Positions 11,256 through 38,612 of a stretch of DNA of 53,210 nt are shown one piece after another (positions within the stretch are counted from its first letter, which is position 1; each line of letters opens with the position of its first letter). Below the pieces are notes generated by a model. That model was not told the origin of the DNA. It did not search any database and worked only from the letters and a program-made list of their open reading frames with translations. Source of the stretch: a virus; the IMG/VR virus record IMGVR_UViG_3300034061_003829, positions 1 to 53,210 of that record. One strand, written 5' to 3'. Both the position numbers and the translations under genes were made by a program.

Positions 11256-11711
11256 ATGACTAAAATTATATGGTTAATAGGGCAAGCAGGACATGGTAAA
11301 ACAGTTCTTGCAAAATTATTACAAGAACACATTGATAGAGTTGGTGTAAATGACGTGTTTCACATTGATGGTGATGATTTAAGAAATCTTACAATTAATA
11401 AAGATTATTCAAGAGCTGGAAGAGAGCAAAACATTAGAAATGCTCAGGTTATTGCTAAATATCTACAAAATAAAGGATATCATGTGGTAGTTTCACTTAT
11501 GACACCATATAGGGATTTAAGAGAAGAGTTTAAGGAAAACACAGAAAATGTATATGAGATTTATGTTCATACCACAGATATAAGAGGTAGAGAGCAGTTT
11601 CACGTTGAAGATTTTCAAAAGCCCGTATTCAATTATTTAGATATGGATACAACAAATATAACACCAGAAGAATGTTTAAAGGAGATTATAGATTATGTCG
11701 GATTGGTATAA
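11256..11711 (+). CDS. cysC: Adenylylsulfate (APS) kinase, CysC family
   Basis: A 151-residue kinase that would phosphorylate APS to PAPS, the sulfate donor for sulfotransferases. The Walker A loop is GQAGHGKT at residues 9-16; the family motif IDGDDLR is at 37-43; the substrate region NKDYSRAGREQNIRNAQ follows; VVVSLMTPYRDLREEF and EIYVHTT are also characteristic. It is shorter than cellular CysC (about 200 residues) but keeps all core motifs. It overlaps the following nucleotidyltransferase by 17 bases, and a DUF2061 gene comes next. A PAPS-dependent sulfotransferase lies 26 kb downstream in the same window, which gives the PAPS a possible use. Confidence 0.85.
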   Translation: MTKIIWLIGQAGHGKTVLAKLLQEHIDRVGVNDVFHIDGDDLRNLTINKDYSRAGREQNIRNAQVIAKYLQNKGYHVVVSLMTPYRDLREEFKENTENVYEIYVHTTDIRGREQFHVEDFQKPVFNYLDMDTTNITPEECLKEIIDYVGLV

Positions 11712-12099
11712 AAAAGTACACGTTCAGTCATCATTAGAACGTAAAGAAGGACAATATGCTATGTTTATTGGTAGATGGCAACCATTACATAAAGGACATC
11801 AAGAGATGTTTCAACAAGCAATGAATGAAGGTAAGAATATTTTAATTTGTATTAGAGATATTCAACCTGATGAAAAAAACCCATATTCAGCTGAGGAAGT
11901 AAAAGCTAATATTGTAAATCATTATTCTAATGAAGTATCGGAGGGTAAAGTAAAAGTAATGGTAATTCCTGATATTTGTTCAGTTGAGTTTGGTAGAGGT
12001 GTTGGGTATGATATTATTGAGCATTTACCACCATTGGATATTGCAAATATCTCAGCAACAAAAATAAGAGAACAATTAAAATCTGAGGGAAAATTATAA
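11695..12099 (+). CDS. HxGH nucleotidyltransferase of the APS kinase cassette
   Basis: A 134-residue protein of the cytidylyltransferase/NMN-adenylyltransferase superfamily. GRWQPLHKGH at residues 26-35 is the nucleotide-binding HxGH motif, and ISATKIRE at 119-126 is the second signature. The core is about the minimal size for this fold. Its partner could be nicotinamide mononucleotide or a pantetheine-type substrate. Because it sits between an APS kinase and a DUF2061 protein, and because ATP sulfurylases share this fold, a role in making APS is possible but unproven. Its stop overlaps the next start (TAATG), so the three genes are likely translated together. Confidence 0.75.
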   Translation: MSDWYKKVHVQSSLERKEGQYAMFIGRWQPLHKGHQEMFQQAMNEGKNILICIRDIQPDEKNPYSAEEVKANIVNHYSNEVSEGKVKVMVIPDICSVEFGRGVGYDIIEHLPPLDIANISATKIREQLKSEGKL

Positions 12100-12524
12100 T
12101 GAAAACTTATAAAATAAGATTTAATACTGCATCTACAAATGATAATGTGAGATGGAGATTAATACCTGATAATGGTGAAGAAATATTAGTATCTGATATT
12201 TTTATTGATGGTGAGGTATTCACAACAAAAGACCATATAGATGGTATAGGTTACAAATGGCATATTACTTGTAAAGGTAATTGTTTAATTAAAGATAATG
12301 TTGCTTATATTACTACACCACCAAAGGATTCCGCAGTTAAAAGACATTTATTAAAAACAATCTCTTATAGATTTTTGGGGACATTAACAACAGTAGTAAC
12401 CGCATATATTTTAGGAGCACCAATAGCGTTGGCTTCAATGTTAGGTATAGGTGAATTGGTATTAAAACCGATTATTTATTTTTTACACGAAAGAGCTTGG
12501 TATAAGTACATAAAAATAAAGTAA
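12099..12524 (+). CDS. DUF2061 membrane protein with N-terminal extension
   Basis: A 141-residue protein. Residues 1-80 form a soluble beta-rich domain (KIRFNTASTNDNVRWRLI, GYKWHITCKGNCLI). Residues about 83-141 match DUF2061: a basic start (KRHLLKTISYRFLGT), two hydrophobic segments around TVVTAYILGAPIALASMLG and VLKPIIYFL, then HERAWYK. DUF2061 proteins are known to occur near sulfate-activation (cys) genes in bacteria, and this copy directly follows an APS kinase, so a link to sulfate activation or to a membrane sulfation step is likely. The biochemical role of DUF2061 is not known. Confidence 0.7.
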   Translation: MKTYKIRFNTASTNDNVRWRLIPDNGEEILVSDIFIDGEVFTTKDHIDGIGYKWHITCKGNCLIKDNVAYITTPPKDSAVKRHLLKTISYRFLGTLTTVVTAYILGAPIALASMLGIGELVLKPIIYFLHERAWYKYIKIK

Positions 12525-12525
12525 G

Positions 12526-12533
12526 TATTTATG
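12526..12533 (+). promoter_or_regulatory. Late-type box TATTTATG, 4 nt before ATG
   Basis: A one-mismatch copy of the late box, with four bases before the ATG at 12538. Confidence 0.45.
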
Positions 12534-12537
12534 TATA

Positions 12538-13407
12538 ATGGGAGTAATAATACAAAATCAATCAATAGTAAGAGGTAACGTAGTTATTAATCGGTTAAAT
12601 CCACCATCACCTTATAATTCATTAAATACAATAGCGAATTATTTAAGGGGTAATATGACAGCCTTTAGAAACCCAAGTTTTTATACTTATTGGTTAGATA
12701 ATGGTATTCCACCAACTTATTCTACAGCAGGAATACCTGATGGTGTTCAAATAAATGATGGTGGTGCCGATATGTTTGATGGTGGTAATATAACAACACC
12801 ATGGCTTAGAAATAATGTAACATATACTACTACCGCAGGTTGGTCAGCTGCGTCATATCCTAACTCTATTAATTACAGTAGTTCAACAATCAATAACATA
12901 GATAGTGATTTTTATTATACGAGTTTGGGTTATATTAGATATTCAGGTGGAACTCAAAATGGTTTATACCATCCTTTAACTGTTATTGGTACAAGGCTTA
13001 ATCAAGGAAGTCCTATTGGTTGGCAAATTGGTGGTAATTCAGGTGCGGATGGTGGTGGTATATTAGCATCAGGTTTATTATATAATGGAGATGTTTTAAG
13101 TGGATTTACGGTATATGCTTTTTTTAGGGAAACATATAACGCCACTGATCCTTCACATTGTAATTTATTTATTTTAATGGGACATCCAAATTGGCGTTCA
13201 GGTTATGGGGCTGTAAGAACATTTGCCGACCCTGTGTCGAATGGTGGTTGTGGTGGTTTTTTAGCTATGACAGGTTCTTCAATTAATAACTTATTGGCAA
13301 TACAAACCCTATTAAGTAAAGCTAGTGGTGTATTAGTTACATCGGCAGAGTGTCAGACAGTCGTCCAAAACTTCGTGTTAAAAGTTAAAGAAGCCGTTAA
13401 TTTTTAA
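12538..13407 (+). CDS. Probable virion protein, Gly/Asn/Tyr-rich, 289 aa
   Basis: No family is recognised. The composition (Gly, Asn, Ser, Thr, Tyr, few Lys/Glu) and the position between fibre and baseplate-type genes suggest an exposed virion protein. Residues about 35-245 look like an all-beta globular domain with many aromatics (NPSFYTYWLDNGIPPTYS, GWQIGGNSGADGGG, FILMGHPNWRSGYG). The C-terminal 40 residues are helical. Three Cys lie in the last third. The phrase 'LDNGIPPTYS' and the Trp-rich pattern could belong to a carbohydrate-binding tip, but this is a guess. It is preceded by a late-type box and followed by tandem boxes. Confidence 0.6.
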   Translation: MGVIIQNQSIVRGNVVINRLNPPSPYNSLNTIANYLRGNMTAFRNPSFYTYWLDNGIPPTYSTAGIPDGVQINDGGADMFDGGNITTPWLRNNVTYTTTAGWSAASYPNSINYSSSTINNIDSDFYYTSLGYIRYSGGTQNGLYHPLTVIGTRLNQGSPIGWQIGGNSGADGGGILASGLLYNGDVLSGFTVYAFFRETYNATDPSHCNLFILMGHPNWRSGYGAVRTFADPVSNGGCGGFLAMTGSSINNLLAIQTLLSKASGVLVTSAECQTVVQNFVLKVKEAVNF

Positions 13408-13418
13408 TATTTTGCTTT

Positions 13419-13442
13419 TATTTATAAAGTAAAGTATTTATA
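13419..13442 (+). promoter_or_regulatory. Tandem late-type boxes
   Basis: Two perfect TATTTATA copies, at 13419-13426 and 13435-13442, start 16 bp apart. The second ends four bases before the ATG at 13447. Confidence 0.55.
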
Positions 13443-13446
13443 ATAG

Positions 13447-14130
13447 ATGAACGAGGCAATATCAAAAGAAAGATTATCTTCTAAAGATTTATATTTAAAT
13501 AGATTCCTTAAAAAGGATAAAAAACCAAAGAAAGAACCAAATCTAGATGATAGTTATTTGGTTAAACTTAGGAATGCTGTTAAAAGTATAAACTATAAAG
13601 ACATAGATTTTCAATCAACAGAACAGTATCAGAGTGAGCAGTTCTATAACGTGGAAATAGATAATAAGGAAATCAATCTATTACTAACTTATGTTAAGAA
13701 TTATGCGTTACAAGATAAAGTTGCCGGTGAAAAAGTAAAACCTGAAAAGTTTGAGTTTGTTGTTAGTGTAAATGAAACAGATTTCAATAGAGTTCATTTT
13801 CGTAAATCTTTACCTAAATTATTAAGAGGTATTGGTCTTGGTTATAAAATATATAAATCATTAGCCTTTAAATTAGGTTATATATCATCAGATAATACAG
13901 CCACATTCGCAGCTCAATCAGTATGGTATTATTTAATACAAGACCCAGATTTTAATTATATTTTACATAAAAACTTTGTATTCATAATAATACGTGATTT
14001 ACCAGTTCAAAAGAAAATAAATGCAGTTATTTCATATATGAAGCATTACAAATGGTTATTTGAAGATGAGAGTGAGTTTGATATTGATGATGAATTAGTT
14101 CAAGAATTAGAAGAATATGGCAATACCTAA
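13447..14130 (+). CDS. Phage protein of unknown function, 227 aa
   Basis: The N-terminal 35 residues are basic and probably disordered (KKDKKPKKEPN). The rest is mixed alpha/beta, with a long conserved-looking core (LPKLLRGIGLGYKIYKSLAFKLGYISS, FVFIIIRDLPVQKKINAVISYM) and an acidic C-terminus. There are no cysteines or membrane segments. It overlaps the following gene by 14 bases, and that gene has a paralogue downstream, so this protein probably belongs to the same tail or baseplate assembly. I do not recognise the family. Confidence 0.6.
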   Translation: MNEAISKERLSSKDLYLNRFLKKDKKPKKEPNLDDSYLVKLRNAVKSINYKDIDFQSTEQYQSEQFYNVEIDNKEINLLLTYVKNYALQDKVAGEKVKPEKFEFVVSVNETDFNRVHFRKSLPKLLRGIGLGYKIYKSLAFKLGYISSDNTATFAAQSVWYYLIQDPDFNYILHKNFVFIIIRDLPVQKKINAVISYMKHYKWLFEDESEFDIDDELVQELEEYGNT

Positions 14131-14920
14131 GAAAACTGTAAATATTGTCGCTCAGAAACAATTAAATAATGAAAGAGTTCATTTAGTTGAGCGTATTAGG
14201 CAGAACGAAAGTTTTCTACCTAAAGGGATATTGCATGAAGATTTGGATAGGGGTTTTGTTGATTTTGTAAATAACGATATAACTCTAAATATTGATGGTA
14301 AGGGTGTTCCTGTTTTGTTTATATCATTACAGAATTGGAATGAGTTTACAAAAACTTGGGAGTTTGCGGATAAATATAAGAATGTTCAGATGCCGTTTAT
14401 CACTATTGTTAGGAATACAAATATAAACTTAAATGAACAAATGAGATATAATATTCCTTACCTTTTTAAAAAAGACTTGTTGAAATTCCCTGTATGGAAT
14501 GGTAATAGAAATGGTTATGATATATATGAAATACCACAACCTGTTAGGGTTAATATATCATATGATGTAACAATATTTTCAACAAGAATGAAGGAATTGA
14601 ATAGGTATAATAAAATTATGTTGACTAAATTTTCATCTAATCAGGCCTATACAACAATAAATGGGCATTATATCCCAATAAGATTAGATGGGGTGTCAAG
14701 TGATAACCAAGTTGATATAATGAGTAAAAAGTTTTATAAACAAACTTATAAACTTATTGAAGAAGGATTATTATTGGATGAAAATAATTTTGTAATAAAA
14801 CCAGCAATAGATAGAACAATAATAAATTATATTCCAGGTGTAGCTAAAGGTACTGCGGTTGTTGATCCAAGTGAGAATCAGTTTGTGGTTAATGGTTATA
14901 TTGATGATTATTTTGAATAA
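14117..14920 (+). CDS. Phage structural protein, paralogue A
   Basis: A 267-residue protein closely related to the N-terminal 230 residues of the protein at 16179-17543. Both share blocks such as VERIRQNE-FLPKG-LHEDLDRGF, VPVLF-S-QNWNEFTKTW, MPFITIVRNT and VWNGNRNGYDIYEIPQPV. The pattern recalls conserved virion proteins of large phages, but I cannot name a T4 equivalent. Both copies flank a short tail fibre, which suggests that they are baseplate or neck proteins holding fibres. No catalytic motif is visible. The fibre starts six bases after its stop. Confidence 0.65.
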   Translation: MAIPKKTVNIVAQKQLNNERVHLVERIRQNESFLPKGILHEDLDRGFVDFVNNDITLNIDGKGVPVLFISLQNWNEFTKTWEFADKYKNVQMPFITIVRNTNINLNEQMRYNIPYLFKKDLLKFPVWNGNRNGYDIYEIPQPVRVNISYDVTIFSTRMKELNRYNKIMLTKFSSNQAYTTINGHYIPIRLDGVSSDNQVDIMSKKFYKQTYKLIEEGLLLDENNFVIKPAIDRTIINYIPGVAKGTAVVDPSENQFVVNGYIDDYFE

Positions 14921-14925
14921 AAGAT

Positions 14926-16164
14926 ATGGGATTAGTATTAAGAGAAGTAAAAGGTAGTAAATTAACTATTCAAGAAATGGATGGTAATTTAACTTATTTG
15001 GATGGTGGTATTACAGCGAACACCCAAAATATTAACGCTAAATTAAATGTAAGTGATTTTAATTCATATAGTAGTAATACTAATACATTAATTGGTAATA
15101 AATTAAATGTAAGTGATTTTAATATATATAGTTCTACAACTAATACATTAATTAATTCTAAGTTAAATCTAACTGATTTTAGTTTATATAGCTCTACAAC
15201 TAATACATTAATTAATTCTAAGTTAGATCTAATTGATTTTAGTTCATACAGTTCAACCACAAATACAAGAATAAATAATAAATTAGATATTTCAATATTT
15301 GCAACATACACAGCAACCACGGCTTCAAATACGTCAGGTGTTACTTATAGTGATTTTGCGGCCTATACCGCAGCAACAAATACGAGAATAAATAATAAAT
15401 TAGATATTTCAATATTTGCAACATACACAGCAACTACAGCTTCAAACGTATCCGGTGTAACTTATAATGATTTTGCAGCTTATACCGCAGCAACAAATAC
15501 GAGGATAAATAACAATTTTAGTCAGTTTACAGGGTTTACTAATAGTTTTTATGTATATACATCAACAACAAACACGAGAATAAATAATAAAGTAGAAACA
15601 TCTACTTATAATACATTTACCGGAACTACATTACCAGTAACTTATTTTAGGTTAGGTGGTAATTCATTTGGGTCAAGCGCTTTATTAGGTACTAATGACA
15701 CTCAAAGTTTAGGGTTTGAAACTAATGCCTTAACTAGAATGACAATAGCAAGTGGTGGTAATGTGGCGATTAATACAACACCTACCGCTAATAGATTAGA
15801 ATTATATCAGTCAGGTGGAACCGTATTTAACGTTGGTGGTGGTGTTGGTAACTTATTTACTGTAAACGATTCAAATGTTGGTAATTTATTAACAGTTCAA
15901 GATGTTTCAGGTAATACTATATTTTTAACAACATCAAGTGGTCAATCAGGTTTTAATACATCAGCAATTACACAATCAGCTCAAGTTCAAATAGATAGCA
16001 CCACAAAAGGATTTTTACCCCCAAGAATGACAGGTGTTCAAGTGGAAGCCATACCATCACCAGCTGAAGGTTTATTGGTATATGCGACAGATGCTGGGGT
16101 TGGTTCAGTAACAAGTAAAGGTTGGTGGGGTTATGATGGATCAACTTGGGTTAAATTAAATTAA
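14926..16164 (+). CDS. Short tail fibre with 20-residue stalk repeats
   Basis: A 412-residue fibre. The N-terminus (MGLVLREVKGSKLTIQEMDG) is a common phage-fibre attachment motif. Residues about 38-230 are stalk repeats of the form TNTLINSKLNLTDFSLYSS, with an exact 20-residue period in the first four units, probably a trimeric coiled or triple-beta shaft. Residues about 240-340 are a beta domain with GGN-type strands. The last 65 residues contain STTKGFLPPRMTGVQ and end in GWWGYDGSTWVKLN, a C-terminal motif often seen in fibre-like proteins of Bacteroidota and their phages. It lacks the beta-roll head of the giant fibres and shares their stalk. Confidence 0.75.
   Translation: MGLVLREVKGSKLTIQEMDGNLTYLDGGITANTQNINAKLNVSDFNSYSSNTNTLIGNKLNVSDFNIYSSTTNTLINSKLNLTDFSLYSSTTNTLINSKLDLIDFSSYSSTTNTRINNKLDISIFATYTATTASNTSGVTYSDFAAYTAATNTRINNKLDISIFATYTATTASNVSGVTYNDFAAYTAATNTRINNNFSQFTGFTNSFYVYTSTTNTRINNKVETSTYNTFTGTTLPVTYFRLGGNSFGSSALLGTNDTQSLGFETNALTRMTIASGGNVAINTTPTANRLELYQSGGTVFNVGGGVGNLFTVNDSNVGNLLTVQDVSGNTIFLTTSSGQSGFNTSAITQSAQVQIDSTTKGFLPPRMTGVQVEAIPSPAEGLLVYATDAGVGSVTSKGWWGYDGSTWVKLN
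15061..15300 (+). repeat. 60-bp tandem units encoding fibre stalk
   Basis: Four consecutive 60-bp units (from 15061, 15121, 15181 and 15241) encode 20 residues each around TNTLINSKL. The middle two are nearly identical. The repeats continue in a more diverged form to about 15600. Confidence 0.85.
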
Positions 16165-16166
16165 AC

Positions 16167-16174
16167 TATTTATA
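16167..16174 (+). promoter_or_regulatory. Late-type promoter box, 4 nt before ATG
   Basis: Perfect ACTATTTATA context. Only four bases separate the box from the ATG at 16179, which is one of the clearest candidates for a leaderless start. Confidence 0.6.
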
Positions 16175-16178
16175 TATA

Positions 16179-17543: not shown

Positions 17544-18013
17544 TGAATTCATTTAAACAAAATATAGTTGTTTTACCTACCAAAGTCGTAGAGCTTACAG
17601 GTAGTACAATACCAAAAGGTATTGAGATACCATTAGGAATACCATCATCAGGTAATTTTATTGGTGCTGTCCCTGGTTGGAATAGCTCAACTTATGTAAC
17701 TAACGCATTAGATGAGTTAAATAAAACATTATTATTATTTAGTGGTCAATCCGCAACTGCAAGTAAATCGGAATTATTATTTAATAGCACAACTGATTGG
17801 AGTGGTCCTACTGATGGTTATTATAGTGTTACATACCCAAAACTATCACATTTAAAAGGCACTAACCCTATTTATGTTATTCAAGAGTTAATTTCAGGTA
17901 GTTATTATGAAGTTAAACCAGATCATATCGTAGTAAGTGGTAGTGGTGATATGTCAATATATGTGATTGATGATCCCGATGGAAGATTTTCGGGAAGAAT
18001 TATAGTTGTTTAA
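17543..18013 (+). CDS. Probable virion protein, 156 aa
   Basis: No family is recognised. The sequence is Ser/Thr/Gly-rich with short beta segments (NIVVLPTKVVELTGSTIPKG, YYSVTYPKLSHL, GDMSIYVIDDPDGRFSGRIIVV), consistent with a small beta-sandwich tail component. It overlaps the end of the paralogue B gene by one base and ends 66 bp before the sheath gene, separated by a late-type box. There are no cysteines and no membrane segments. Confidence 0.6.
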   Translation: MNSFKQNIVVLPTKVVELTGSTIPKGIEIPLGIPSSGNFIGAVPGWNSSTYVTNALDELNKTLLLFSGQSATASKSELLFNSTTDWSGPTDGYYSVTYPKLSHLKGTNPIYVIQELISGSYYEVKPDHIVVSGSGDMSIYVIDDPDGRFSGRIIVV

Positions 18014-18035
18014 TGTTATTTGTAAAAATAATAAC

Positions 18036-18043
18036 TATTTATA
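18036..18043 (+). promoter_or_regulatory. Late-type promoter box (sheath)
   Basis: Perfect TATTTATA 36 nt before the sheath ATG, followed by an A-rich leader without a Shine-Dalgarno sequence. Confidence 0.6.
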
Positions 18044-18079
18044 GAGTAAATAAATTATAAAAAGATAAAAAAATAAATT

Positions 18080-24604: not shown

Positions 24605-24964
24605 ATGTATCTATTAAAAAATTTAGACAGATTTCAAAAATCTTTTAATCATTTATTTTTAACAGGTTTTTCTGATGAGATTGGGGGTAGTTTAATTAAA
24701 ACAAATGTGATTGAGAATGATGAATCATACGATATTGAGTTCGTTGTTCCTGGTTTTAAGAGAGAAGAATTATCAGTAACTATTGAGGGTAAAAACTTGG
24801 TGGTTGAGGGTAAAAAGGAAGGTAAAGAAATTAAATATAATAAGAGTATTTATTTCCCTAATGGTGTAAAAACGATAACCGCTAAATTAGAAAATGGTAT
24901 TTTAACGGTATCAATACCAAAAGAAAAAACAAAAAAAGATAAAATTGTTGTTGATATTAAATAA
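24605..24964 (+). CDS. Small heat-shock protein, Hsp20/alpha-crystallin
   Basis: A 119-residue protein. Residues about 30-115 form the alpha-crystallin domain: IENDESYDIEFVVPGFKREE, LSVTIEGKNLVVEGKK, IYFPNGVKTITAKLENG and GILTVSIPKEK, the last being the conserved (A/G)-x-L signature region. The N-terminal 28 residues are short and hydrophobic. Such proteins hold unfolding proteins as oligomers without ATP. A tmRNA gene follows 27 nt after the stop, with only a late-type box between them, so two protein-quality-control genes are adjacent. Confidence 0.9.
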   Translation: MYLLKNLDRFQKSFNHLFLTGFSDEIGGSLIKTNVIENDESYDIEFVVPGFKREELSVTIEGKNLVVEGKKEGKEIKYNKSIYFPNGVKTITAKLENGILTVSIPKEKTKKDKIVVDIK

Positions 24965-27558: not shown

Positions 27559-30500
27559 ATGTCAAGTTTAAATAATAATTATATAAATAAAACCTTTAAT
27601 TCATTATTAAAATTATTTAGTAATGAATCATTTACTGGGACAACTAAACACATTATTAGTGATGGTTTAGGAAATGTATTACCAATATCTTTTGATGTGG
27701 ATGGTACAACAATTATTTCAGGTGCAACGAAAGCTAATAAATTTATTGGTGGTGATAATACTTCAGCCGGTGGTGATGGAACGTTTGTTGGTGGTGGCGT
27801 ATCAAATGATGCAGCTGGACAATGCTCATCAATTGTTGGTGGTAAAAATAATACAGTATTTAGAGAATATTCAGCTATATTAGGTGGCGAAAATAACGTT
27901 TCAAATGAAACTTATTCGGTTATAGGTGGTGGTTTAAGTAACACTACTGAAGGACAATATTCAGGTATATTAGGAGGGCAAAATAATTATACTAATTTAA
28001 ATAATACATTTATAATTGGTTCTAATATAACCGCAACAACTACTAATACAACTTACGTTGAAAACATTAGTATTGCTGGTAATGTATATGATTCTAATAA
28101 TAGTAGTGGGACAAATGGACAAGTTTTATATAGAGGTGACACCGGTTTAGAATGGTTTACTATTAATATTGGTACAATTACAGGTAATAGTATATCTAAA
28201 GAAGTGTTTTACCAATACACAAGTGATACAAATACTTTAATCGGAACTAAATTAAATATAACTGACTTTAGTTCATATAGTGCCAATACAAATACTTTAA
28301 TTGGAACTAAAGTTGATAATATTAGCTTTTTTAACTATACAGCGGAAACTGAAACTAAAAAATTAGATACCAGTGTATTCGCATTCTATACCGCAAATAC
28401 ACCTTCTAATGTTAGTTATTTAACAACCGCATTTACACAAACATTTGTAAGTTACACTGCTAACACTAAAACAGAAATTGATTCTAAGTTAAATTATACA
28501 ACATTTACTGCATACACGGCAACAACAAATACAAGAATAAATAATAAAGTAGAAACATCTACATATAATTCATTTGTCTCAAGTACTAATTCTTCAATAG
28601 GAAGCTTAACGTCAGGTTTAGCGACTAAGGTTATTGAAGATGGTGGTTCTGGTTCAACTATAAGAATTAATAATAGTAACACAGTTCAAGGTACAGGTTC
28701 ATCAGTATTAGGTGGTTGTACTAACACATCTTCAGGTAATTTTTCAACTATATCAGGTGGTTATAGTAATACAAATGATACTAATGCAAATTGTTCAGTA
28801 ATTGTAGGTGGTTGTATTAATACAAATAGTGAAAGATTTTCATTTATAGGTGGTGGTTGTCGTAATACTTCATCAGGTAATTATGGCTTTATAGGTGGTG
28901 GTTGTCAGAATACGATTGGTAGTGTTGGTAAATCAACAATCGTAGGTGGTTCAACTAACGTAACTAATAGTAATTATACTTATGTGGGTGGTGGTAGCAC
29001 TAACTATGTTGGTACAAATGCTGATTGTGGTGTAATTAGTGGTGGTTTCCAAAATACAATATTAGATGGTGGTAGTGGAGTATGTTTATCAACAATAGGT
29101 GGTGGTGCATACAATCAAGTTGGTGGTAATTTTTCAAATGTTGGGGGTGGTTTCCAAAATACCGCAGCTTGTCAAGGTGGTTTTATTGGTGGTGGTACTT
29201 ATAATACATTACTTGGTAATTGTGCTGTAATTGGTGGTGGTTGTAATAACACAGCATCAGGTGGATATTCAATAATCGGTGGTGGTTGTAATAATAAAGC
29301 GAATGGTGATTACTCAAATATATTAGGTGGTAGTGGAAACGTAGCGGATGCTAACAATACGTTTGTTTTAGGTTCTAATATTAATACTTCAACACCAGAT
29401 ACCACGTATGTAGAAAGTTTGAATGTTTGTGGTGCTTTATATGATAATGGAGCATCTTCAGGTAGTGCTGGTAATATATTATCATCAACAGGAAGTGGTG
29501 CTAGATGGCGTTCAGCTGATAATTTAATATCAGGTAGTACGTCAGTAACAAGTAAATTAAGTTTAACTAATTTCAATACATACACATCTTCAACTAATAC
29601 ATTAATCGGAACTAAATTAAATATAACTGATTTTAGTTTATATAGTGCAAATACTAATACATTAATTGGATCTAAATTAAATTTAGCCGATTTTAGTGTT
29701 TATAGTTCTACTACAAATAATATAAAATACGATAAAAGTGGTGGTATTATTAGTGGTAATGTAACAATTACAGGTAATTTAACTTTGTTGGGTTCAGGTA
29801 ACACAATAAATGTTCAAAACTCAGTTATAACTTCACCTATATTATTACTAGCATCAGGTAGCACACTATCAACATTAAACGCTGGTTTATTAATTAACAG
29901 GGCTACAACAGGAAGCACAGCATTTATCTATAAAGAAGATTTAGGTGAATATCAATTAGGTTACACAACAGCAACAACAGCATCTGGATTATCAATAGTT
30001 AATTTTAATAGCTATGGTAAATTGCGTTTAGGTGGTTTATACACCACTAACGTATATGATAGATTAAATAATAGTGGTTCAGTAAATGACGTATTATTTT
30101 CAAAGGATAGTGGTGTGGAATGGGGTAATTTAGATTATAAACTAAATGTAGTTGATTTTAATTCTTACAGCTCAAATACACTATCAAACTTTATAAGTTA
30201 TACTGGTTTAACTAAAACACAAATAGATAGTAAATTAAATATAACTGATTTTAGTTTATATAGTTCAACAACTAATAATATTATTAATAATAAATTAAGT
30301 ATTTCAGGTGGTACAGTATATGGTGATTTAAATGTTTTAGGTAATGTTACAGCAAATACATTTTATGGTATTGGTGGTTATACTACATTAGGAACACCAG
30401 CAGATGGTAGTTATGATACAGGATTATTAGGTTTAACATCGGCAACAACAATTAATTACGCTGTTGATCAGATTGATACAATTCTAGCTTTATTAGCACC

Positions 30501-31947
30501 AGCTAAACCACCAAGATTAGATGCCTCATCTTGGATTAGTCCAGGTTATTCATCAGCAGTTGCTTCAGGTGATTGGGTTAATATTTCAGGAACTACAATA
30601 AGTAAAGTAATATTTAACAATCTATTACCTCAATTTAGAGTTACAGGCGGAACAAGTGGAACTTTTAGTGGGTTTTGGAATGGTTTATTAGGTGATATAA
30701 CATTTTATGTGAATGGTACATCTAATGGTTCTAAACTTTTAACAACAACAAGTGTAAACGCATCCACAGCTAATACAGGTACTTATTTAGGTTTAACCTT
30801 GAATGTAAATGATTATTATGTGAATCAAACAGGTAAATCAGGTTTCTGGTCAGCAATCGCAGCTTCAGGTAGAACACAGAGTATTTTATCAAACAACGCA
30901 TTTACATCACAAACATATACATTAACTCATACTGAAACAGGAAGTATATCGGAAAGTTTTTATGTTGATACCACTTATACCCCTACAATATCTAATATAT
31001 CGCAAACAGCAACACCTTCTTCAATAACAAGATATGTGTCAGGTGTTCCATCGTTAGCGGTAGGTGATTCTTTCACATATTCATATAGAGTTAATAATGC
31101 GGTAAGTAAGTTCTATACAACAGGAACATTTGCTAAAATGGATGGTTCTACTTGGACAATAAATAGTACATCATACGCTAGTAGTTCATTATCACCTAAA
31201 CCATTTTCAGGGCAATCAGTAACATTAACATCACAATCATTAGCAGCAACAACTAACAAATATAGTGAAAGTCCAAGTATTACTTTTTATGGTTATAACG
31301 CAATAAATGGTGTTGGAACTTCGTCATCATCATTAACAGGTTATAGAATTGATACGGTATCAAATGAAAATAGATTAAGAAATGCGGCGAATGGTGAAAA
31401 TAACCCTCCACCTACAAACTTTTACCCTGTACAGTATCAATTACCATATGATTCAACAGAAAGGATTGTGGGTAATGTAACTAATACGTCTTATAATTAC
31501 GAATTACAATTATTAAATGGTAGTTATCAAGTGCCAACAGGTCTTGATTATTCAACTTATACTGGTGGTTATAATTATTCATCAGTAGGTTCACAAACAA
31601 GATTTGTTTTATTAACAGGAACTCCATTAAGTTCGGTAAATAGTGTGACAATAACATTTAACGGAACAAGCCCTACTTGGACAGCAGCAGCTAATGGTGT
31701 CACTTCAGGATTAACTTTAAATGTAAGAGTTAGTGGAACAGATTGGATTGATGGTAACGCACCATACTCTGGTAGTGGAAGCCCATCGGCTAATGGTACT
31801 CCAGCAATGGTTTCATCCGATTCATCGGCAACAGTTAAAAAAATAACGTTTGGTTCAACTGCGAGAAGTGGGACTATTTATGTGAGAATAGGATTACCAG
31901 CATTAAGCGATAAAAAATTCACAGGAATATCAATAACAACATCATAA
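27559..31947 (+). CDS. Giant tail fibre 3: two beta-rolls, stalks, C-terminal domain
   Basis: A 1462-residue modular fibre. Order: attachment segment (1-50); short beta-roll closed by FIIGSNITATTTNTTYVENI (about 60-172); stalk repeats around TNTLIGTKLNITDFSSYSA (about 215-355); longer beta-roll closed by FVLGSNINTSTPDTTYVESL (about 370-630); stalk (about 660-720); a globular domain; more stalk (about 860-920); and a 500-residue C-terminal region from about 960 with a PAKPPRLD linker and Ig-like or lectin-like beta domains (WNGLLGDITFYVNG, YELQLLNGSYQV, TIYVRIGLPALSDK). The C-terminal region is unlike the other giant fibres and is the likely receptor-binding tip. There is no S74 domain. Confidence 0.75.
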   Translation: MSSLNNNYINKTFNSLLKLFSNESFTGTTKHIISDGLGNVLPISFDVDGTTIISGATKANKFIGGDNTSAGGDGTFVGGGVSNDAAGQCSSIVGGKNNTVFREYSAILGGENNVSNETYSVIGGGLSNTTEGQYSGILGGQNNYTNLNNTFIIGSNITATTTNTTYVENISIAGNVYDSNNSSGTNGQVLYRGDTGLEWFTINIGTITGNSISKEVFYQYTSDTNTLIGTKLNITDFSSYSANTNTLIGTKVDNISFFNYTAETETKKLDTSVFAFYTANTPSNVSYLTTAFTQTFVSYTANTKTEIDSKLNYTTFTAYTATTNTRINNKVETSTYNSFVSSTNSSIGSLTSGLATKVIEDGGSGSTIRINNSNTVQGTGSSVLGGCTNTSSGNFSTISGGYSNTNDTNANCSVIVGGCINTNSERFSFIGGGCRNTSSGNYGFIGGGCQNTIGSVGKSTIVGGSTNVTNSNYTYVGGGSTNYVGTNADCGVISGGFQNTILDGGSGVCLSTIGGGAYNQVGGNFSNVGGGFQNTAACQGGFIGGGTYNTLLGNCAVIGGGCNNTASGGYSIIGGGCNNKANGDYSNILGGSGNVADANNTFVLGSNINTSTPDTTYVESLNVCGALYDNGASSGSAGNILSSTGSGARWRSADNLISGSTSVTSKLSLTNFNTYTSSTNTLIGTKLNITDFSLYSANTNTLIGSKLNLADFSVYSSTTNNIKYDKSGGIISGNVTITGNLTLLGSGNTINVQNSVITSPILLLASGSTLSTLNAGLLINRATTGSTAFIYKEDLGEYQLGYTTATTASGLSIVNFNSYGKLRLGGLYTTNVYDRLNNSGSVNDVLFSKDSGVEWGNLDYKLNVVDFNSYSSNTLSNFISYTGLTKTQIDSKLNITDFSLYSSTTNNIINNKLSISGGTVYGDLNVLGNVTANTFYGIGGYTTLGTPADGSYDTGLLGLTSATTINYAVDQIDTILALLAPAKPPRLDASSWISPGYSSAVASGDWVNISGTTISKVIFNNLLPQFRVTGGTSGTFSGFWNGLLGDITFYVNGTSNGSKLLTTTSVNASTANTGTYLGLTLNVNDYYVNQTGKSGFWSAIAASGRTQSILSNNAFTSQTYTLTHTETGSISESFYVDTTYTPTISNISQTATPSSITRYVSGVPSLAVGDSFTYSYRVNNAVSKFYTTGTFAKMDGSTWTINSTSYASSSLSPKPFSGQSVTLTSQSLAATTNKYSESPSITFYGYNAINGVGTSSSSLTGYRIDTVSNENRLRNAANGENNPPPTNFYPVQYQLPYDSTERIVGNVTNTSYNYELQLLNGSYQVPTGLDYSTYTGGYNYSSVGSQTRFVLLTGTPLSSVNSVTITFNGTSPTWTAAANGVTSGLTLNVRVSGTDWIDGNAPYSGSGSPSANGTPAMVSSDSSATVKKITFGSTARSGTIYVRIGLPALSDKKFTGISITTS

Positions 31948-31959
31948 AAATTATAAAAA

Positions 31960-34900
31960 ATGGCAATAAGTACAAACGAAATAGCTCAAAGATTATTTAA
32001 AAAATTATTAGGTAAAGGTGATACATTTACTAATAGAGCATTCTATGAAGAACCATATAATGGACCACTTCAAATGTTTTCTAATAATGTTTGGACCGAT
32101 ACATCTAAAATACCAACAGTATTTTTCCCAACATCATCAACACAATCAGGGACAACGGTTCAAAGTTTGTTAAATGATTCTTATGTTTATCCAGATGGAA
32201 CAACAGGTTTAACCCAAAATAATGCAGTTGTTCAGATTAAAACATATAACCTAACATTAAATCCTGGTTCTAGTGGTGATACTCAAAGTTTTGCCTTTGT
32301 TAATCCAAACGCTGTTGATGTAGTACCTTCTACCTATGGAAGTGCGTATCAATATTATATAACATATAATAGTGGAACTGTGTTATCATTTGGTTCAGGT
32401 GATTCAGTATTTGACCCTGAATCAGGTATATTAAAGTTTTATACCAATACCCCTTCTGATTGGTCTAGTGGTGATTTTGTTATTAAAGCCGCTAAATATA
32501 TTGGTAATAAATTGTCAGCATATGATTTATCTCTTATTAATACCAATTCAGGTAGTACAGCGCAATTAAACTCATTTTTAAGTGGGTTTTATTCTTACAC
32601 ATCAAACACTAAAACACAAATAGATAATAAAGTTATTGAGGTTGGTAGTGGTGTTGGATCAACCATAAGAATAAATAACAATAACGAAGCATTTTCTGAA
32701 TATTCAAGTGTTTTATCAGGAACAGGTAATACTTCATATGGTAGTAGTTCAGTAATTAGTGGTGGTAAAGAAAATTTAATATCAGGTTCACCTAGTAATA
32801 GATTCTCAGTAATCGCAGGTGGATTAAAAAATACTATATTTGGTAATTCCAATTCAGGTTATGGTTCTTGTAGTGTAATTGGGGGTGGATGTGGTAATAT
32901 AACTTGTGGTGTAGTAACTGTCATAGGTGGTGGTTTTAATAATACCGCATACGCTGCTGGGGCTACAATATCAGGAGGTTATCGTAACGTATCAAATCAA
33001 ACATATTCGTTTATAGGTAGTGGTCAAAATAATAAAATAACAAATATTGCTGGTGGATGTGTATCTGTTATAGGTGGTGGTCTATTAAATACTATTTCGG
33101 GTAGTACATTATGTAATGCAGCTAATTTTATAGGTTCAGGACAAGGTAACACTTTATTTGATTCTAGATTTTCAGTAATAAATGGTGGTTTTAATAATAG
33201 ATTATTTGGGTTTAATTCTACTATTGGCGGTGGAACAATTAACACATCGTATTGTGATAATAGTACAATAGGTGGTGGATGTAGAAATATAATATTAGGA
33301 CCTGGTGGATTTATTGGTGGTGGATTAAATAATATAGTATCCGGTAACACATCAGCAATAGCTGGTGGTATTTGCAACATCGTAACAGGTAATACATCAG
33401 CAATTGTAGGAGGACAACAAAATATTATTACCTCCGATTTTTCCGGTATTTTAAGTGGTAGATTAAATAGGATAGAAAATAGTAATTCTACCATTGGTGG
33501 TGGTATAAGTAATACAATTTTAAGTGATTGTTCATTTATAGGCGGTGGTAATTGTAATACTACATACGCCGGTGGAGCTACAATATCAGGAGGTTATTGT
33601 AACACATCAGATCAAACAAATTCGTATATAGGTAGTGGTAGTCGTAATAAAATAGTAAGTATTGGGGGTGGATGTATATCTGTTATTGGTGGTGGTCAAT
33701 TAAACACTATTTCAGGCAGTACATTATGTAATATAGGTAACTTTATAGGTTCAGGACAAGGTAACACTTTATTTGATTCTAGATTTTCAGTAATAAATGG
33801 TGGTTTTAATAATACTTTAGTCGGATGTAACTCTACTATTGGTGGTGGAACAAATAACATATCGTATTGTGATAATAGTACGATAGGTGGTGGTTGCAGT
33901 AATAATATATTAGGTACTAATGGATTTATAGGTGGTGGTATAAATAATCTAATATCAGGTTCAACATCTGTTATTGATGGTGGTTCCAATAATGGTATAA
34001 CAGGTAATACATCAGCAATTGTAGGAGGACAACAAAATACTATTAAATCAGATTTTTCCGGCATTCTAAGTGGTAGATTAAATAGAGTGGAAAATAACCA
34101 TTCACTTATTGGTGGTGGTATAAATAATACAACTTTAGGTGATTGTTCATTTATAGGTGGTGGTTGTGGTAATAATATATTTAATTGTAGCCACAATTCA
34201 ATTGTTGGTGGTTCTTTAAATACTATTTCAGGTAGCTCATTTTCAATGATAGGTAATGGAGATAGAAATACAATAGCAACATCAGGTGGTATTCAAAATA
34301 TAATTGCGTCAGGTAAACTTAATTTAATATCAGGTAATACATTAAGTTCTACGATTTCTGGTGGGTATAAAAATACGATAATTGGTTCACAATCAACCAT
34401 TGCGGGTGGACAAAATAACATTGTAATAAACACCAATTCAGTAGTTGGTGGTGGTATTAATAATACAATTAGTGGAACTTTATCCGGTATAGTTGGTGGT
34501 TGTGATAATAAAACATTAAGTTCTGGTGGATTTATAGGTGGTGGTATTAATAATATAGTATCCGGTAACACATCAGCAATAGCTGGCGGATCTAATAATA
34601 TTGTAACAGGTAATACATCAGCAATTGTAGGAGGACAACAAAATATTATTACCTCTGATTTTTCCGGTATTTTAAGTGGTAGATTAAATAGGGTCGATAA
34701 TAACCATTCACTTATCGGTGGTGGTATAAATAATACAACTTTAGGTGATTGTTCGTTTATAGGTGGTGGTTGTGGTAATAATATATTTAATTGTTGTTAT
34801 AACTCAATAGTTGTTGGTTTTAGAAATACTATTTCAGGTAGCTCATTTTCAATGATAGGTAATGGAGATAGAAATACAATAGCAACATCACCAAATAGTG

Positions 34901-36876
34901 TTCAAAATATAATTGCGTCAGGTAAACTTAATTTAATATCAGGTAATACATTAAGTTCTACAATTTCTGGTGGGTATTGTAATACAATAATTGGGTCGTA
35001 TTCAACAGTTGCCGGTGGACAAAACAACACTATAACAAGTATTAACTCAGCAGTTAGTGGGGGTTTATGTAATACAATTAGTGGATGTTTATCAGGTATA
35101 GGTAGTGGATGTAGAAATACAATATTATCATCGGGATCAACAATTACTGGAGGTATTTGTAACACAACTTCAGGTGATTGTTCATTAATAGGTGGTGGAT
35201 TTAGAAATACTATATCATCAATTGGTTCAACCATAACAGGTGGTATTTGTAATACAACTTCAGGTGATTGTTCATTAATAGGTGGTGGATTTAGAAATAC
35301 CATTTGTGCTAACTCACCACATACTTTAATAGTTGGTGGTGAAAGAAACGTTATTAGTGGTTGTCATTCAGTAATTGTAGGTGGTAGTGGTAATACAATA
35401 ACTAGTCAAGCTAGATCATTTATTGCTGGTGGTTTTAGAAATACAGCACTTTGTAGTAACACATTTATTTTAGGTAGTAATTTAACAGCAACAACAGTAA
35501 ATACAACTTATGTTGAAAGTTTAAATGTTAAAAACTATGTTTATGATTCTACAAGTAGTTCAGGGACAACAGGTCAAGTTTTAACCACAACTAATTCAGG
35601 TGTTAGATGGAATACATCAGTTGATCCTGTAATTATATTAGGTACAGGAACAGGTTCTTCAGTAAGGAAAGGTAATAATAATACAACATTAGGTAGTTAT
35701 TCAACCGTAAGTGGTGGTCAATACAATACCTCATCAGGTAACACATCAACAATTGCCGGTGGTGGATATAATGTGATTGATGGTTTTGAAAGTTTAATAG
35801 GTGGTGGTGTTGGAAATTATGTGATTAATGATAAATCGTCTGTTGTTGGTGGTTTAATGAATATTGTAGGTGAATCTAAAATATATTCAGCTAATTGGAC
35901 TTTATTTAATACATTATTAACTATTTCAGGTGACGTATCAACTTATTTTAATGTTAATAATGAAGTAAGAGTATTTAATTTCAATGATAACTCATATAAC
36001 ACAACAACGATTTTAGCTTCAGTTTATGATAACCCATCTAATTCAACTCAATTATTATTAAAAGATAGTGTTGGTAGTAATAGTGATACAATATTTTATA
36101 ATAAAACAACATCAATAGAAAATGGTTGTTACAATTTCATTGGTGGTGGTATAGGTAATATATCTTATGGATGTCATTCATCAATAGTGGGTGGTTTTAC
36201 AAATATTACATCAGGTAATACATCAACAATTGCTGGTGGTTGTTATAATACATCGATTGAAAGTTATTCATTTATAGGTGGTGGTGTATGTAATACAGTT
36301 TCTAATACTTATTCAACAATTTTAACTGGTTATAAAAATACAATTACAGGTTGTCATTCAGGTATTATCGCTGGTTCAGGGAATACTATAACAAGTAATA
36401 ATTCAATAATTGGTGGTGGTTGTAAAAATACAATTTATGATTTAAGTGATTATTCAAATATTTTAGGTGGTTATAATAACTACATATCAGGTAGCACATC
36501 TTCTTTAATTATTGGTGGTGGTAATAATACTTTGATTACTACCAATAATTCGTGCCCATCTGAATATTCAAATATTATAGGTGGTCAATGTAATAAAAAT
36601 TATGGCGATTGTACCTCTATACTTGGCGGATCTAATAATACTATTAGTTTTAGAACCCCTGGTTCAGTTATTTTAGGTGGGGCTAATAATACAATACCTG
36701 ATAATATTTCAAGTAGTTTTATATTAGGTAGTAATATAACTGCAAATTGTAGTGACACAACATTCGTAAAATACTTGAATATTGGAGGAATAATAGAAAC
36801 AAACACATGTTCAAGTTTATCGCAAGGAACTCTTTGGAGATGTGTTGGTGATGATGTGGTAAGAATAAAATTATAA
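31960..36876 (+). CDS. Giant tail fibre 4: extended beta-roll
   Basis: The largest protein here, 1638 residues. Residues 1-200 are an N-terminal beta domain (FPTSSTQSGTTVQSL, YYITYNSGTVLSFGSGDSVFDPESG), then a short stalk (TNTKTQIDNK). From about 225 almost everything is beta-roll: over 70 short units of the GGGxxNTxSG type in two blocks separated by a YDSTSSSGTTGQVL adaptor near 1190 and an insert near 1310. Within the first block, superunits of about 203 residues recur. Each block closes with FILGSN-x-TTYV/TTFV. The C-terminus is short (LSQGTLWRCVGDDVVRIKL). Cysteine often follows GGG. There is no S74 domain; how it folds and trimerises is unclear. A hairpin and the glycosyltransferase gene follow. 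Confidence 0.75.
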   Translation: MAISTNEIAQRLFKKLLGKGDTFTNRAFYEEPYNGPLQMFSNNVWTDTSKIPTVFFPTSSTQSGTTVQSLLNDSYVYPDGTTGLTQNNAVVQIKTYNLTLNPGSSGDTQSFAFVNPNAVDVVPSTYGSAYQYYITYNSGTVLSFGSGDSVFDPESGILKFYTNTPSDWSSGDFVIKAAKYIGNKLSAYDLSLINTNSGSTAQLNSFLSGFYSYTSNTKTQIDNKVIEVGSGVGSTIRINNNNEAFSEYSSVLSGTGNTSYGSSSVISGGKENLISGSPSNRFSVIAGGLKNTIFGNSNSGYGSCSVIGGGCGNITCGVVTVIGGGFNNTAYAAGATISGGYRNVSNQTYSFIGSGQNNKITNIAGGCVSVIGGGLLNTISGSTLCNAANFIGSGQGNTLFDSRFSVINGGFNNRLFGFNSTIGGGTINTSYCDNSTIGGGCRNIILGPGGFIGGGLNNIVSGNTSAIAGGICNIVTGNTSAIVGGQQNIITSDFSGILSGRLNRIENSNSTIGGGISNTILSDCSFIGGGNCNTTYAGGATISGGYCNTSDQTNSYIGSGSRNKIVSIGGGCISVIGGGQLNTISGSTLCNIGNFIGSGQGNTLFDSRFSVINGGFNNTLVGCNSTIGGGTNNISYCDNSTIGGGCSNNILGTNGFIGGGINNLISGSTSVIDGGSNNGITGNTSAIVGGQQNTIKSDFSGILSGRLNRVENNHSLIGGGINNTTLGDCSFIGGGCGNNIFNCSHNSIVGGSLNTISGSSFSMIGNGDRNTIATSGGIQNIIASGKLNLISGNTLSSTISGGYKNTIIGSQSTIAGGQNNIVINTNSVVGGGINNTISGTLSGIVGGCDNKTLSSGGFIGGGINNIVSGNTSAIAGGSNNIVTGNTSAIVGGQQNIITSDFSGILSGRLNRVDNNHSLIGGGINNTTLGDCSFIGGGCGNNIFNCCYNSIVVGFRNTISGSSFSMIGNGDRNTIATSPNSVQNIIASGKLNLISGNTLSSTISGGYCNTIIGSYSTVAGGQNNTITSINSAVSGGLCNTISGCLSGIGSGCRNTILSSGSTITGGICNTTSGDCSLIGGGFRNTISSIGSTITGGICNTTSGDCSLIGGGFRNTICANSPHTLIVGGERNVISGCHSVIVGGSGNTITSQARSFIAGGFRNTALCSNTFILGSNLTATTVNTTYVESLNVKNYVYDSTSSSGTTGQVLTTTNSGVRWNTSVDPVIILGTGTGSSVRKGNNNTTLGSYSTVSGGQYNTSSGNTSTIAGGGYNVIDGFESLIGGGVGNYVINDKSSVVGGLMNIVGESKIYSANWTLFNTLLTISGDVSTYFNVNNEVRVFNFNDNSYNTTTILASVYDNPSNSTQLLLKDSVGSNSDTIFYNKTTSIENGCYNFIGGGIGNISYGCHSSIVGGFTNITSGNTSTIAGGCYNTSIESYSFIGGGVCNTVSNTYSTILTGYKNTITGCHSGIIAGSGNTITSNNSIIGGGCKNTIYDLSDYSNILGGYNNYISGSTSSLIIGGGNNTLITTNNSCPSEYSNIIGGQCNKNYGDCTSILGGSNNTISFRTPGSVILGGANNTIPDNISSSFILGSNITANCSDTTFVKYLNIGGIIETNTCSSLSQGTLWRCVGDDVVRIKL
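33055..34900 (+). repeat. Three-fold superrepeat of about 610 bp in fibre 4
   Basis: Segments such as the one starting ATAGGTTCAGGACAAGG occur at 33130 and 33745 (615 bp apart). The GGTAGCTCATTTTC segment occurs at 34231 and 34837 (606 bp apart). TCCGGTAACACATCAGC occurs at 33340 and 34561, 1221 bp apart, which is the sum of the two periods. Long stretches are nearly identical at DNA level, which indicates recent duplication. Confidence 0.8.
35131..35310 (+). repeat. 90-bp tandem duplication in fibre 4
   Basis: Two adjacent 30-residue units share an almost identical 90-bp period; the common core ACAACTTCAGGTGATTG is at 35164 and 35254. This is the most recent-looking duplication in the fibre genes. 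Confidence 0.8.
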
Positions 36877-36887
36877 TATTTACTAAG

Positions 36888-36927
36888 AGCGTAGTTTTCT
36901 TATATTCATTATATGAAAAACTACGCT
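36888..36927 (+). promoter_or_regulatory. Start-codon hairpin of glycosyltransferase mRNA
   Basis: AGCGTAGTTTT (36888-36898) is the exact reverse complement of AAAACTACGCT (36917-36927). The 18-nt loop holds the ATG at 36913, so the hairpin could hide or present the start codon. There is no T-run, so it is not an ordinary terminator. Confidence 0.55.
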
Positions 36928-37794
36928 TTATTTCACATAGAAGGTGGGTTGGGTAAACACGTTGCCGCCACCGCAGTTGCAAAATGTATAAAAAACAATC
37001 ACCCTGATAGGGAGCTTCTTGTTGTATGTGCATACCCTGAAGTATTCTTAAATCTTAATTTTGTTCATAAAGTATTTAGGTTAGGTAACACACCATACTT
37101 TTATCAAGATTATATTAAAGACAAAGATACTTTAATATTTAAACACGAACCTTACTTCACAGAAGATCACATTGGTAAAAAATTATCTCTTACTGAGAAT
37201 TGGTGTAAATTGTATAAATTAGATTACTTAGGTGAAACACCTGAATTAGTATTTAATGTTAGACAAACACAATGGGGTTTTAGAAAATGGCAAAGACAAA
37301 GACCCGTTATGGTTATTCAAACAAACGGAGGTCCATTAAATCAAGAAATGCCTTATTCTTGGACAAGGGATATTCCTTATCCTGTAGCACAAGCTTTAGT
37401 TGATTATTACGCTAAAGATTATCATATTATACAAGTTTGTAGACACGAAGAAAATAAATTATCTGGTTGTGAACACGTAATGGAATCAATGTCAAATATG
37501 GAATTATTCTCATTATTATTATCATCACAAAAAAGAATACTTATTGATAGTTGTTTACAACACGCAGCGTCAGCTTTAGGATTAAAATCAACCGTATTAT
37601 GGATTGGGACATCACCTAAATTATTTGGTTATGATTCACACGATAATATTGTAGCACAAATAAATGACAACATTAAATTACCTGATAGTTATTTATTTGA
37701 TTTTAGTTTTAATGGGGTATTACATGAATGTCCTTTAATGGATTTTAACATTTTCGATATGGATTCAATAATTTATTCAGTAAGCACACAATAA
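36913..37794 (+). CDS. GT-B glycosyltransferase, heptosyltransferase-like
   Basis: A 293-residue protein with the two-Rossmann layout of GT9-like enzymes. EGGLGKHVAATAVAKCIK (residues 10-27) is the acceptor-side glycine loop, and KRILIDSCLQHAASALGLKSTVLWIGTSP near 210-240 is the donor-side region. It lacks the four-Cys finger of the enzyme at 1469-2380. The donor sugar and acceptor are unknown. It lies directly after giant fibre 4 and its stop overlaps the start of the sulfotransferase (TAATG). A common acceptor for both enzymes is a reasonable inference. Translation may be controlled by the hairpin around its start codon. Confidence 0.75.
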   Translation: MKNYALFHIEGGLGKHVAATAVAKCIKNNHPDRELLVVCAYPEVFLNLNFVHKVFRLGNTPYFYQDYIKDKDTLIFKHEPYFTEDHIGKKLSLTENWCKLYKLDYLGETPELVFNVRQTQWGFRKWQRQRPVMVIQTNGGPLNQEMPYSWTRDIPYPVAQALVDYYAKDYHIIQVCRHEENKLSGCEHVMESMSNMELFSLLLSSQKRILIDSCLQHAASALGLKSTVLWIGTSPKLFGYDSHDNIVAQINDNIKLPDSYLFDFSFNGVLHECPLMDFNIFDMDSIIYSVSTQ

Positions 37795-38612
37795 TGGTAG
37801 AAAAAATATTCTTTCAGAGTTCGTTACCTAGAAGTGGTTCAACTCTATTACAAAACATAATGGGACAAAATCCAGACTTTTACGTCACACCAACATCAGG
37901 TGTATTAGAATTAGTATATGCAGCAAGAGCTAATTACACATCATCACCTGAGTTTAAAGCACAGGATTCTGAATTAATGAAGGAAGGATTCACAGCTTTT
38001 TGTAAGAATGGTATTGAGGGTTACTTTAACGCAATTACAGATAAAAAATACGCAATGGATAAATCAAGGGGTTGGGGTATTCATTATGGATTTCTTAATT
38101 CATTTTATCCTGAACCAAAAATTATCTGTATGATAAGAGACCCAAGAGCAATATACGCTTCAATGGAAAAAAACTTTAGAAAAAATCAACATTTAGATTC
38201 AGGTATTGTAGATCACGCACAAATGCAAGGTACGACAACTGAAAAAAGGATTGATATATGGACACAAGGACAACCAGTGGGTTTAGCATTAGAAAGATTA
38301 TATCAGGTATTAAGAGAAGGTATTGGACAAAAAATGTTGTTTGTTAAATTTGAAGATTTGTGTAGACAACCTGAAATTGAAATGCAAAGAATATATAAGT
38401 ATTTAGAAGTTCCTTATTTTCAACACGATTTCAATAATATTGAACAGATAACACAGGAAGATGATGCTGTATATGGTATATATGGTGATCACGTAATTAA
38501 ACCTAAATTAGAACCCGTTAAAAATGATTATAAAGAAGTATTAGGTGTAAATGCGGCTAATTGGATTAGAAATAATTTTAAATGGTTTTATGATGAGTTT
38601 AAATATATTTAA
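37794..38612 (+). CDS. PAPS-dependent sulfotransferase
   Basis: A 272-residue protein. SSLPRSGSTLLQ at residues 9-20 is the 5'-phosphosulfate-binding loop, and RDPRAIYASM at 115-124 is the 3'-phosphate-binding motif; together they define the sulfotransferase family that moves sulfate from PAPS to hydroxyl groups. The later part includes KFEDLCRQPEIEMQRIYKYLEV, also typical. Acceptors in this group are sugars, peptides or lipids and cannot be read from the sequence. It overlaps the glycosyltransferase by one base, and the phage also carries an APS kinase at 11256-11711 able to make PAPS. A strong terminator follows at once. Confidence 0.85.
   Translation: MVEKIFFQSSLPRSGSTLLQNIMGQNPDFYVTPTSGVLELVYAARANYTSSPEFKAQDSELMKEGFTAFCKNGIEGYFNAITDKKYAMDKSRGWGIHYGFLNSFYPEPKIICMIRDPRAIYASMEKNFRKNQHLDSGIVDHAQMQGTTTEKRIDIWTQGQPVGLALERLYQVLREGIGQKMLFVKFEDLCRQPEIEMQRIYKYLEVPYFQHDFNNIEQITQEDDAVYGIYGDHVIKPKLEPVKNDYKEVLGVNAANWIRNNFKWFYDEFKYI

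Follow-up and report, generated by a model that had tools for sequence, protein, structure and literature searches.

The viral contig analysed here (IMG/VR record IMGVR_UViG_3300034061_003829, positions 1 to 53,210), called the window throughout, is a 53,210-base stretch with T4-like structural genes for the sheath, the major capsid protein (MCP), the tube, and the prohead protease, all named by sequence and gene order. It also encodes four giant fibres that are rich in serine, threonine, asparagine, and glycine and carry 15-residue GGGxxN repeats. Alongside these fibres are two glycosyltransferases (GTA and GTB), a kinase of the adenosine 5'-phosphosulfate (APS) kinase family, a nucleotidyltransferase (NT), a DUF2061 predicted membrane protein, and a sulfotransferase (ST) that depends on 3'-phosphoadenosine 5'-phosphosulfate (PAPS). 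All of the genes named in a previous sequence-only reading of the window were confirmed as open frames (Table 1). The enzymes lie here in three blocks and are read as one functional module. Coupling is close: the kinase gene starts 19 bp past a fibre stop codon and overlaps the NT gene by 17 bp, and the junction sequence TAATG is common to the NT/DUF2061 and GTB/ST pairs. From sequence comparisons, we judge it probable (roughly 0.6) that the phage uses a module encoded in the window to decorate its own giant β-roll fibres with sulfated glycans.

Table 1. Fibre genes of the window and the enzymes proposed to act with them
Feature	Positions	Strand	Length (aa)	Basis
GTA, TibC/Aah-like (GT9 superfamily) glycosyltransferase	1469..2380	+	303	TIGR04414 119 bits; TibC 4rap/4rb4 in PDB
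Giant fibre, 15-aa GGGxxN repeats, candidate acceptor	3974..7015	+	1013	15 motifs, spacing mostly 15 aa; weak β-roll match
Giant fibre, GGG repeats and C-terminal Peptidase_S74 chaperone, candidate acceptor	7070..11236	+	1388	Pfam 46 bits
APS-kinase family kinase, truncated lid	11256..11711	+	151	Pfam APS_kinase 66 bits
NT, minimal NadM-like HIGH nucleotidyltransferase, proposed APS-forming (sulfurylase-like)	11695..12099	+	134	CTP_transf_like 31 bits
DUF2061 predicted membrane protein, conserved N-terminal domain	12099..12524	+	141	Pfam DUF2061 52 bits
Giant fibre, GGG repeats, candidate acceptor	27559..31947	+	1462	Repeats
Giant fibre, 33 GGGxxN motifs, candidate acceptor, directly 5' of GTB-ST	31960..36876	+	1638	LbR_Ice_bind β-roll 52 bits
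GTB, GT9-fold glycosyltransferase	36913..37794	+	293	AlphaFold2 (AF2) model and Foldseek
ST, PAPS-dependent sulfotransferase (Sulfotransfer_3)	37794..38612	+	272	Pfam 77 bits

In many viral contigs, these genes recur as a contiguous cassette 3' of a giant β-roll fibre gene, in the order GGG fibre-GT8-GTA-GTB-ST-kinase-NT-DUF2061. A pattern search found 214 relatives of ST in viral contigs, of which 80 were kept; the ST locus set comprises 71 distinct loci, including 46 long loci used for fibre counts. The GTB family is present in 53 of the 71 and the kinase in 35, and because viral records may be fragments, absences of genes are soft. Co-occurrence with GGG-repeat fibres, which the sequence-only reading had proposed as a check, is borne out in related phages: such a fibre lies within 10 kb of ST in 42 of the 46 long loci. 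At most one non-cassette gene separates the two in 26 of these 42, against 12.0 expected when the remaining genes of each locus supply the positions (0 of 20,000 permutations). The enrichment arises at one or two intervening genes, and strict adjacency of ST and fibre (zero genes between) is not enriched. A large gene of any kind rich in the same four residues is likewise found near ST more often than expected (31 of 46 loci, 18.6 expected; 0 of 20,000 permutations). Gene orders vary widely across loci, which speaks against one arrangement having simply been inherited. In a tree built from 48 STs, the presence of a nearby kinase requires 12 changes, at least eight of them forced by supported branches (here "absent" means only that no kinase is nearby). 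In a set of 28 MCP relatives, each 20 kb or longer, GGG fibres occur in five of five with ST and one of 23 without it, a comparison that is not independent because the five ST carriers form one clade near the window and amount to roughly a single event. Chance or misannotation was ruled out as the source of these patterns, as both the families and the gene linkages recur in many contigs.

The glycosyltransferases belong to the GT9 superfamily or fold. GTA relatives of the Aah/TibC (BAHT) family glycosylate repetitive surface proteins on Ser (PMC4358343), and GTA had been described as an autotransporter heptosyltransferase type. The kinship holds in part: GTA matches the Aah/TibC O-heptosyltransferase model TIGR04414 at 119 bits, below its 200-bit NCBIfam cut-off, and TibC is its only relative in the PDB. 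Residues D40, W224, and C257, C260, C271, and C283 are invariant in 11 aligned GTA sequences and correspond to the catalytic base D110, the sugar-binding W305, and the iron-finger cysteines C339, C342, C358, and C370 of TibC (residues per PMC4358343). Other sugar-binding residues of TibC are not kept; R286 is replaced by Ala or Ser and T226 by Leu, neither position is conserved, and the sugar may thus be other than heptose. At the TibC K230 position there is only a neighbouring, non-conserved basic residue, and the match begins at TibC residue 90, so that the N-terminal barrel is absent. The fibre repeats were also compared with the known AIDA-type heptosylation target repeat, and an NCBIfam test gave no match. 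GTB had no match in family searches, and its confident AF2 model (predicted local distance difference test score, pLDDT, 90) has a GT9 (GT-B) fold, with 3tov (E=3.5e-11), WaaF, WaaC, and TibC among the top Foldseek matches, at E values of 1e-7 to 1e-11. Relatives of the cassette carry further glycosyltransferases: a GT8 before GTA (L010) and a GT25 between GTB and ST (L015).

The cassette could instead sulfate a surface polysaccharide of the infected host (lipopolysaccharide or capsule), for instance as a barrier to superinfection or a means of altering receptors, with the fibres as mere neighbours. Phages are known to encode glycosyltransferases that change the host serotype, as PMC12619734 notes, and in S-SRM01 the genes adjoining ST encode a glycosyltransferase and a sugar epimerase. 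Several loci also weigh against fibre decoration. The nearest GGG fibre is at least nine genes from ST in L055, L057, L073, L076, and L078. In an MCP relative (G026), kinase-NT-DUF2061 stands in a glycan-synthesis cluster with GT2s, a GT10-type enzyme, DegT, and a Sulfotransfer_2 protein of a different family from ST, and no fibre gene occurs in the 18 kb read; because its PAPS set lies in such a cluster without a fibre gene, the glycan of G026 may not be borne on fibres. Nevertheless, ST lies nearer to fibre genes than chance predicts in loci that differ in gene order and in fibre type, GTA comes from a protein-acting family, and the surroundings of the window genes showed no flippase or polymerase. 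Sulfation of host polysaccharide is therefore an unlikely account of the cassette.

ST far exceeds the Pfam cut-off for Sulfotransfer_3 (27 bits), and its PAPS-binding motifs are present: the PRxGST loop of the 5'-phosphosulfate-binding site and residues R115 and S123 of the 3'-phosphate-binding site are invariant in 36 aligned sequences. With a partner of GT9 fold and the TAATG overlap between the two genes, the earlier description of a PAPS-dependent sulfotransferase coupled to a glycosyltransferase holds. A host origin of the gene was ruled out by a pattern scan of 84,980 prokaryote genomes, which returned only four loci, two in contigs of metagenome-assembled genomes, with 62% and 56% identity, and two in bacteria, where the relatives are distant (35%). 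The latter (L252 and L253, from Colwellia and Motiliproteus) lie directly upstream of open reading frames of more than 2,100 aa, and repeat-rich fibre-like genes also surround the distant STs found in two cyanophages and in a single-cell record of Kyanoviridae. The Kyanoviridae record AG-345-L05 (L254) has two sulfotransferases, GTB, and DUF6445 or oxygenase-like genes interleaved with fibre-like genes. L019, L082, and L083 have another sulfotransferase paralogue (about 50% identity to the window ST) near or with the cassette, which suggests more than one sulfation site.

The nearest PDB sequences to ST are tyrosylprotein sulfotransferases, and the stretches around the Colwellia and Motiliproteus relatives hold giant open reading frames with no GTB or GTA. 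Both observations would suit direct sulfation of the fibre protein (for example, on Tyr), in the manner of RaxST and RaxX, with the glycosyltransferases serving something separate. However, the position of the Glu in the GEETR motif, which we take to be the catalytic residue of tyrosylprotein sulfotransferases, is an invariant Thr (T34) in the ST alignment. The top NCBIfam match, albeit weak, is the glycan sulfotransferase NoeE, and GTB accompanies ST in most loci. Direct protein sulfation is accordingly improbable, and sulfation of a fibre-borne glycan is preferred.

PAPS for such a reaction would come from the kinase and NT. The window kinase clears the Pfam APS_kinase cut-off of 21 bits, its P-loop, DGDxxR APS-site motif, and PY are invariant or nearly so in 24 aligned kinases, and its nearest PDB relatives are the archaeal APS kinases 7yq0 and 8a8h. 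To this extent the name APS kinase, given to it from the first, is sound; it does not extend to the curated equivalog apsK (CysC, TIGR00455), where the kinase scores 69 bits against a cut-off of 138.7, or to a complete lid, as about 17 residues of the KGLYKKAR lid are missing. NT is a HIGH-type enzyme that falls outside the Sat/MET3 and CysD sequence families in Pfam and profile searches. Its Pfam ATP-sulfurylase match is weak and under the cut-off (E=0.0019), and by sequence it resembles nicotinamide mononucleotide (NMN) adenylyltransferase (NMNAT; PDB profile and NCBIfam) rather than a sulfurylase. Its structural model (pLDDT 88) has weak Foldseek matches for all candidates. Neither the window kinase nor NT alone proves PAPS synthesis, and the genomic evidence is stronger.

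Across a set of 80 NT loci, the kinase is fused to or adjoins NT in 64 and is one gene away in 13 more, and DUF2061 lies within three genes of NT in 44. Fusions exist in both orders (kinase-NT in L039, NT-kinase in L244), and full-length kinases that pass the apsK cut-off, at 168-267 bits, are linked to NT in L236, L239, L242, L243, and L244. A metagenome-bin contig (L250) carries a homologous cassette of a YadA_head/S74 fibre, a GTB fusion, and ST, followed by a fusion of an apsK-grade kinase with a sulfurylase domain of the CysD type, CysD being a canonical ATP sulfurylase subunit; no NT was found near this cassette. The contig (JABHJM010000084.1) is binned as a Diapherotrites archaeon and is probably a mis-binned viral contig. 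NT, which the sequence-only reading had left unexplained, is thus tied to bona fide APS kinases and absent from the cassette that has CysD, and for these reasons it may take the sulfurylase role. A plain NMN adenylyltransferase is less likely because the linkage to the kinase is near-obligate. Sulfotransferases also accompany NT: Sulfotransfer_3 or Sulfotransfer_2 occurs in 28 of the 40 NT records that reach 20 kb but in none of 22 MCP-related control records without the kinase (Fisher p=1.7e-8). One more of the 40 has a weak Sulfotransfer_1 match, and in the remaining 11, which may be fragments, no sulfotransferase was detected, a count that tells against the proposed module.

The truncated lid and the NMNAT-like NT would also fit a pathway in which no sulfate is involved, with the two enzymes making another 3'-phosphonucleotide donor or serving nucleotide metabolism. 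The CysC-like kinase of Campylobacter O-methyl phosphoramidate synthesis is a precedent for a different donor of this kind. Divergent kinase-NT fusions (phrog_10255 type) in the Stenotrophomonas phages Suzuki and DLP_6 (L256, L257) have no sulfotransferase annotated nearby, that of DLP_6 has DAD in place of DGD, and both possibly belong to another nucleotide pathway. Yet APS kinases of curated grade are partners of NT, as neighbours or in a fusion, L250 has an apsK-CysD fusion after ST, and the association with sulfotransferases spans different Pfam families, so that we give little credence to a sulfate-free role in the cassette. Least credible is an auxiliary metabolic role for the kinase and NT in sulfur assimilation by the host, with no connection to the fibres. 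Phages are known to carry sulfur genes, but neither a reductase nor any further gene for cysteine synthesis was noticed in the window, and the two genes adjoin ST, glycosyltransferase, and fibre genes.

The sulfated fibre glycan that we infer would be built in a series of steps, of which the acceptor, the sugar, the NT activity, the order, and the benefit are all putative. NT would convert sulfate and ATP to APS, from which the kinase would make PAPS, perhaps close to the membrane and together with DUF2061. GTA would prime the glycan by attaching a sugar to residues in the fibre repeats, GTB (with GT8 or GT25 in relatives) would extend it, and ST would move sulfate from PAPS to the glycan. The benefit could be a shield or an altered receptor contact. 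The glycan-sulfating system first proposed for the window thus keeps its outline, in that PAPS supply, glycosyltransferases, and sulfotransferase form one fibre-tied module, with the fibres as candidate acceptors and heptose as a putative sugar. A bolder version, which is plausible but which we would not yet bet on, is a self-contained sulfation pathway in which a NadM-derived NT of about 115-160 residues serves as a novel type of ATP sulfurylase, either linked to APS kinase or fused with it, and feeds the fibre-linked ST.

Other genes of the window were noted by eye only. Just 5' of GTA, positions 15-725 encode a metallophosphoesterase resembling UDP-2,3-diacylglucosamine hydrolase (LpxH type), and the product of 762-1217 has the look of a hotdog-fold acyl-CoA thioesterase, unusual for a T4-like phage. 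A small heat-shock (Hsp20-like) protein is encoded amid the structural genes at 24605-24964.

Parts of the proposed system have known counterparts. Nod factor sulfation combines a dedicated PAPS supply (NodPQ) with the glycan sulfotransferases NodH and NoeE. The phage cassette shares this combination, and ST weakly matches NoeE, but the Nod substrate is a lipochitooligosaccharide and has no fibre linkage. PAPS synthetases are fusions of kinase and sulfurylase, and in the phage loci, too, kinase and adenylyltransferase are adjacent or fused, in both orders; the phage adenylyltransferase, in contrast, is a NadM-like domain rather than Sat/MET3 or CysDN. The Rax system of Xanthomonas (raxP/raxQ, raxST, raxX; PMC4216712, PMC6637879) likewise dedicates PAPS supply and a sulfotransferase to a secreted product. 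It differs in being bacterial, in sulfating Tyr of a small peptide, in using a canonical sulfurylase, and in having no glycosyltransferases. Autotransporter heptosylation by TibC and Aah on TibA and AIDA-I (PMC4358343) has in common with GTA the catalytic Asp, the four iron-finger cysteines, and an acceptor class of repetitive surface proteins, whereas GTA is phage-borne, lacks the features of TibC noted above, and is joined to GT9, GT8, sulfotransferase, and PAPS genes. Mycobacteriophage virions are glycosylated by phage-encoded glycosyltransferases (Freeman et al. 2023, as cited in PMC12619734). Decoration of virion proteins by phage enzymes would be a shared feature; the mycobacteriophage targets are the capsid and tail tube, not fibres, and the relevant part of PMC12619734 mentions no sulfation. 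No report of phage virion or fibre sulfation was found in the open-access literature. Virion glycosylation and bacterial sets of PAPS supply plus sulfotransferase are already known, and NT is the part that could be categorically new.

If true, sulfation of phage virions would be a novelty, as would a mini-sulfurylase, and NT is a small, directly testable candidate for a new class of ATP sulfurylase. The ST family is large in viruses (at least 214 contigs) and rare in prokaryote genomes (four loci, two being metagenome bins); fibre sulfation, if true, would for this reason be a widespread, virus-centred trait. It would give phage adhesion devices a charged, host-independent glycan chemistry, and could change how they contact receptors, how stable they are, or how host defences and grazers recognize them.

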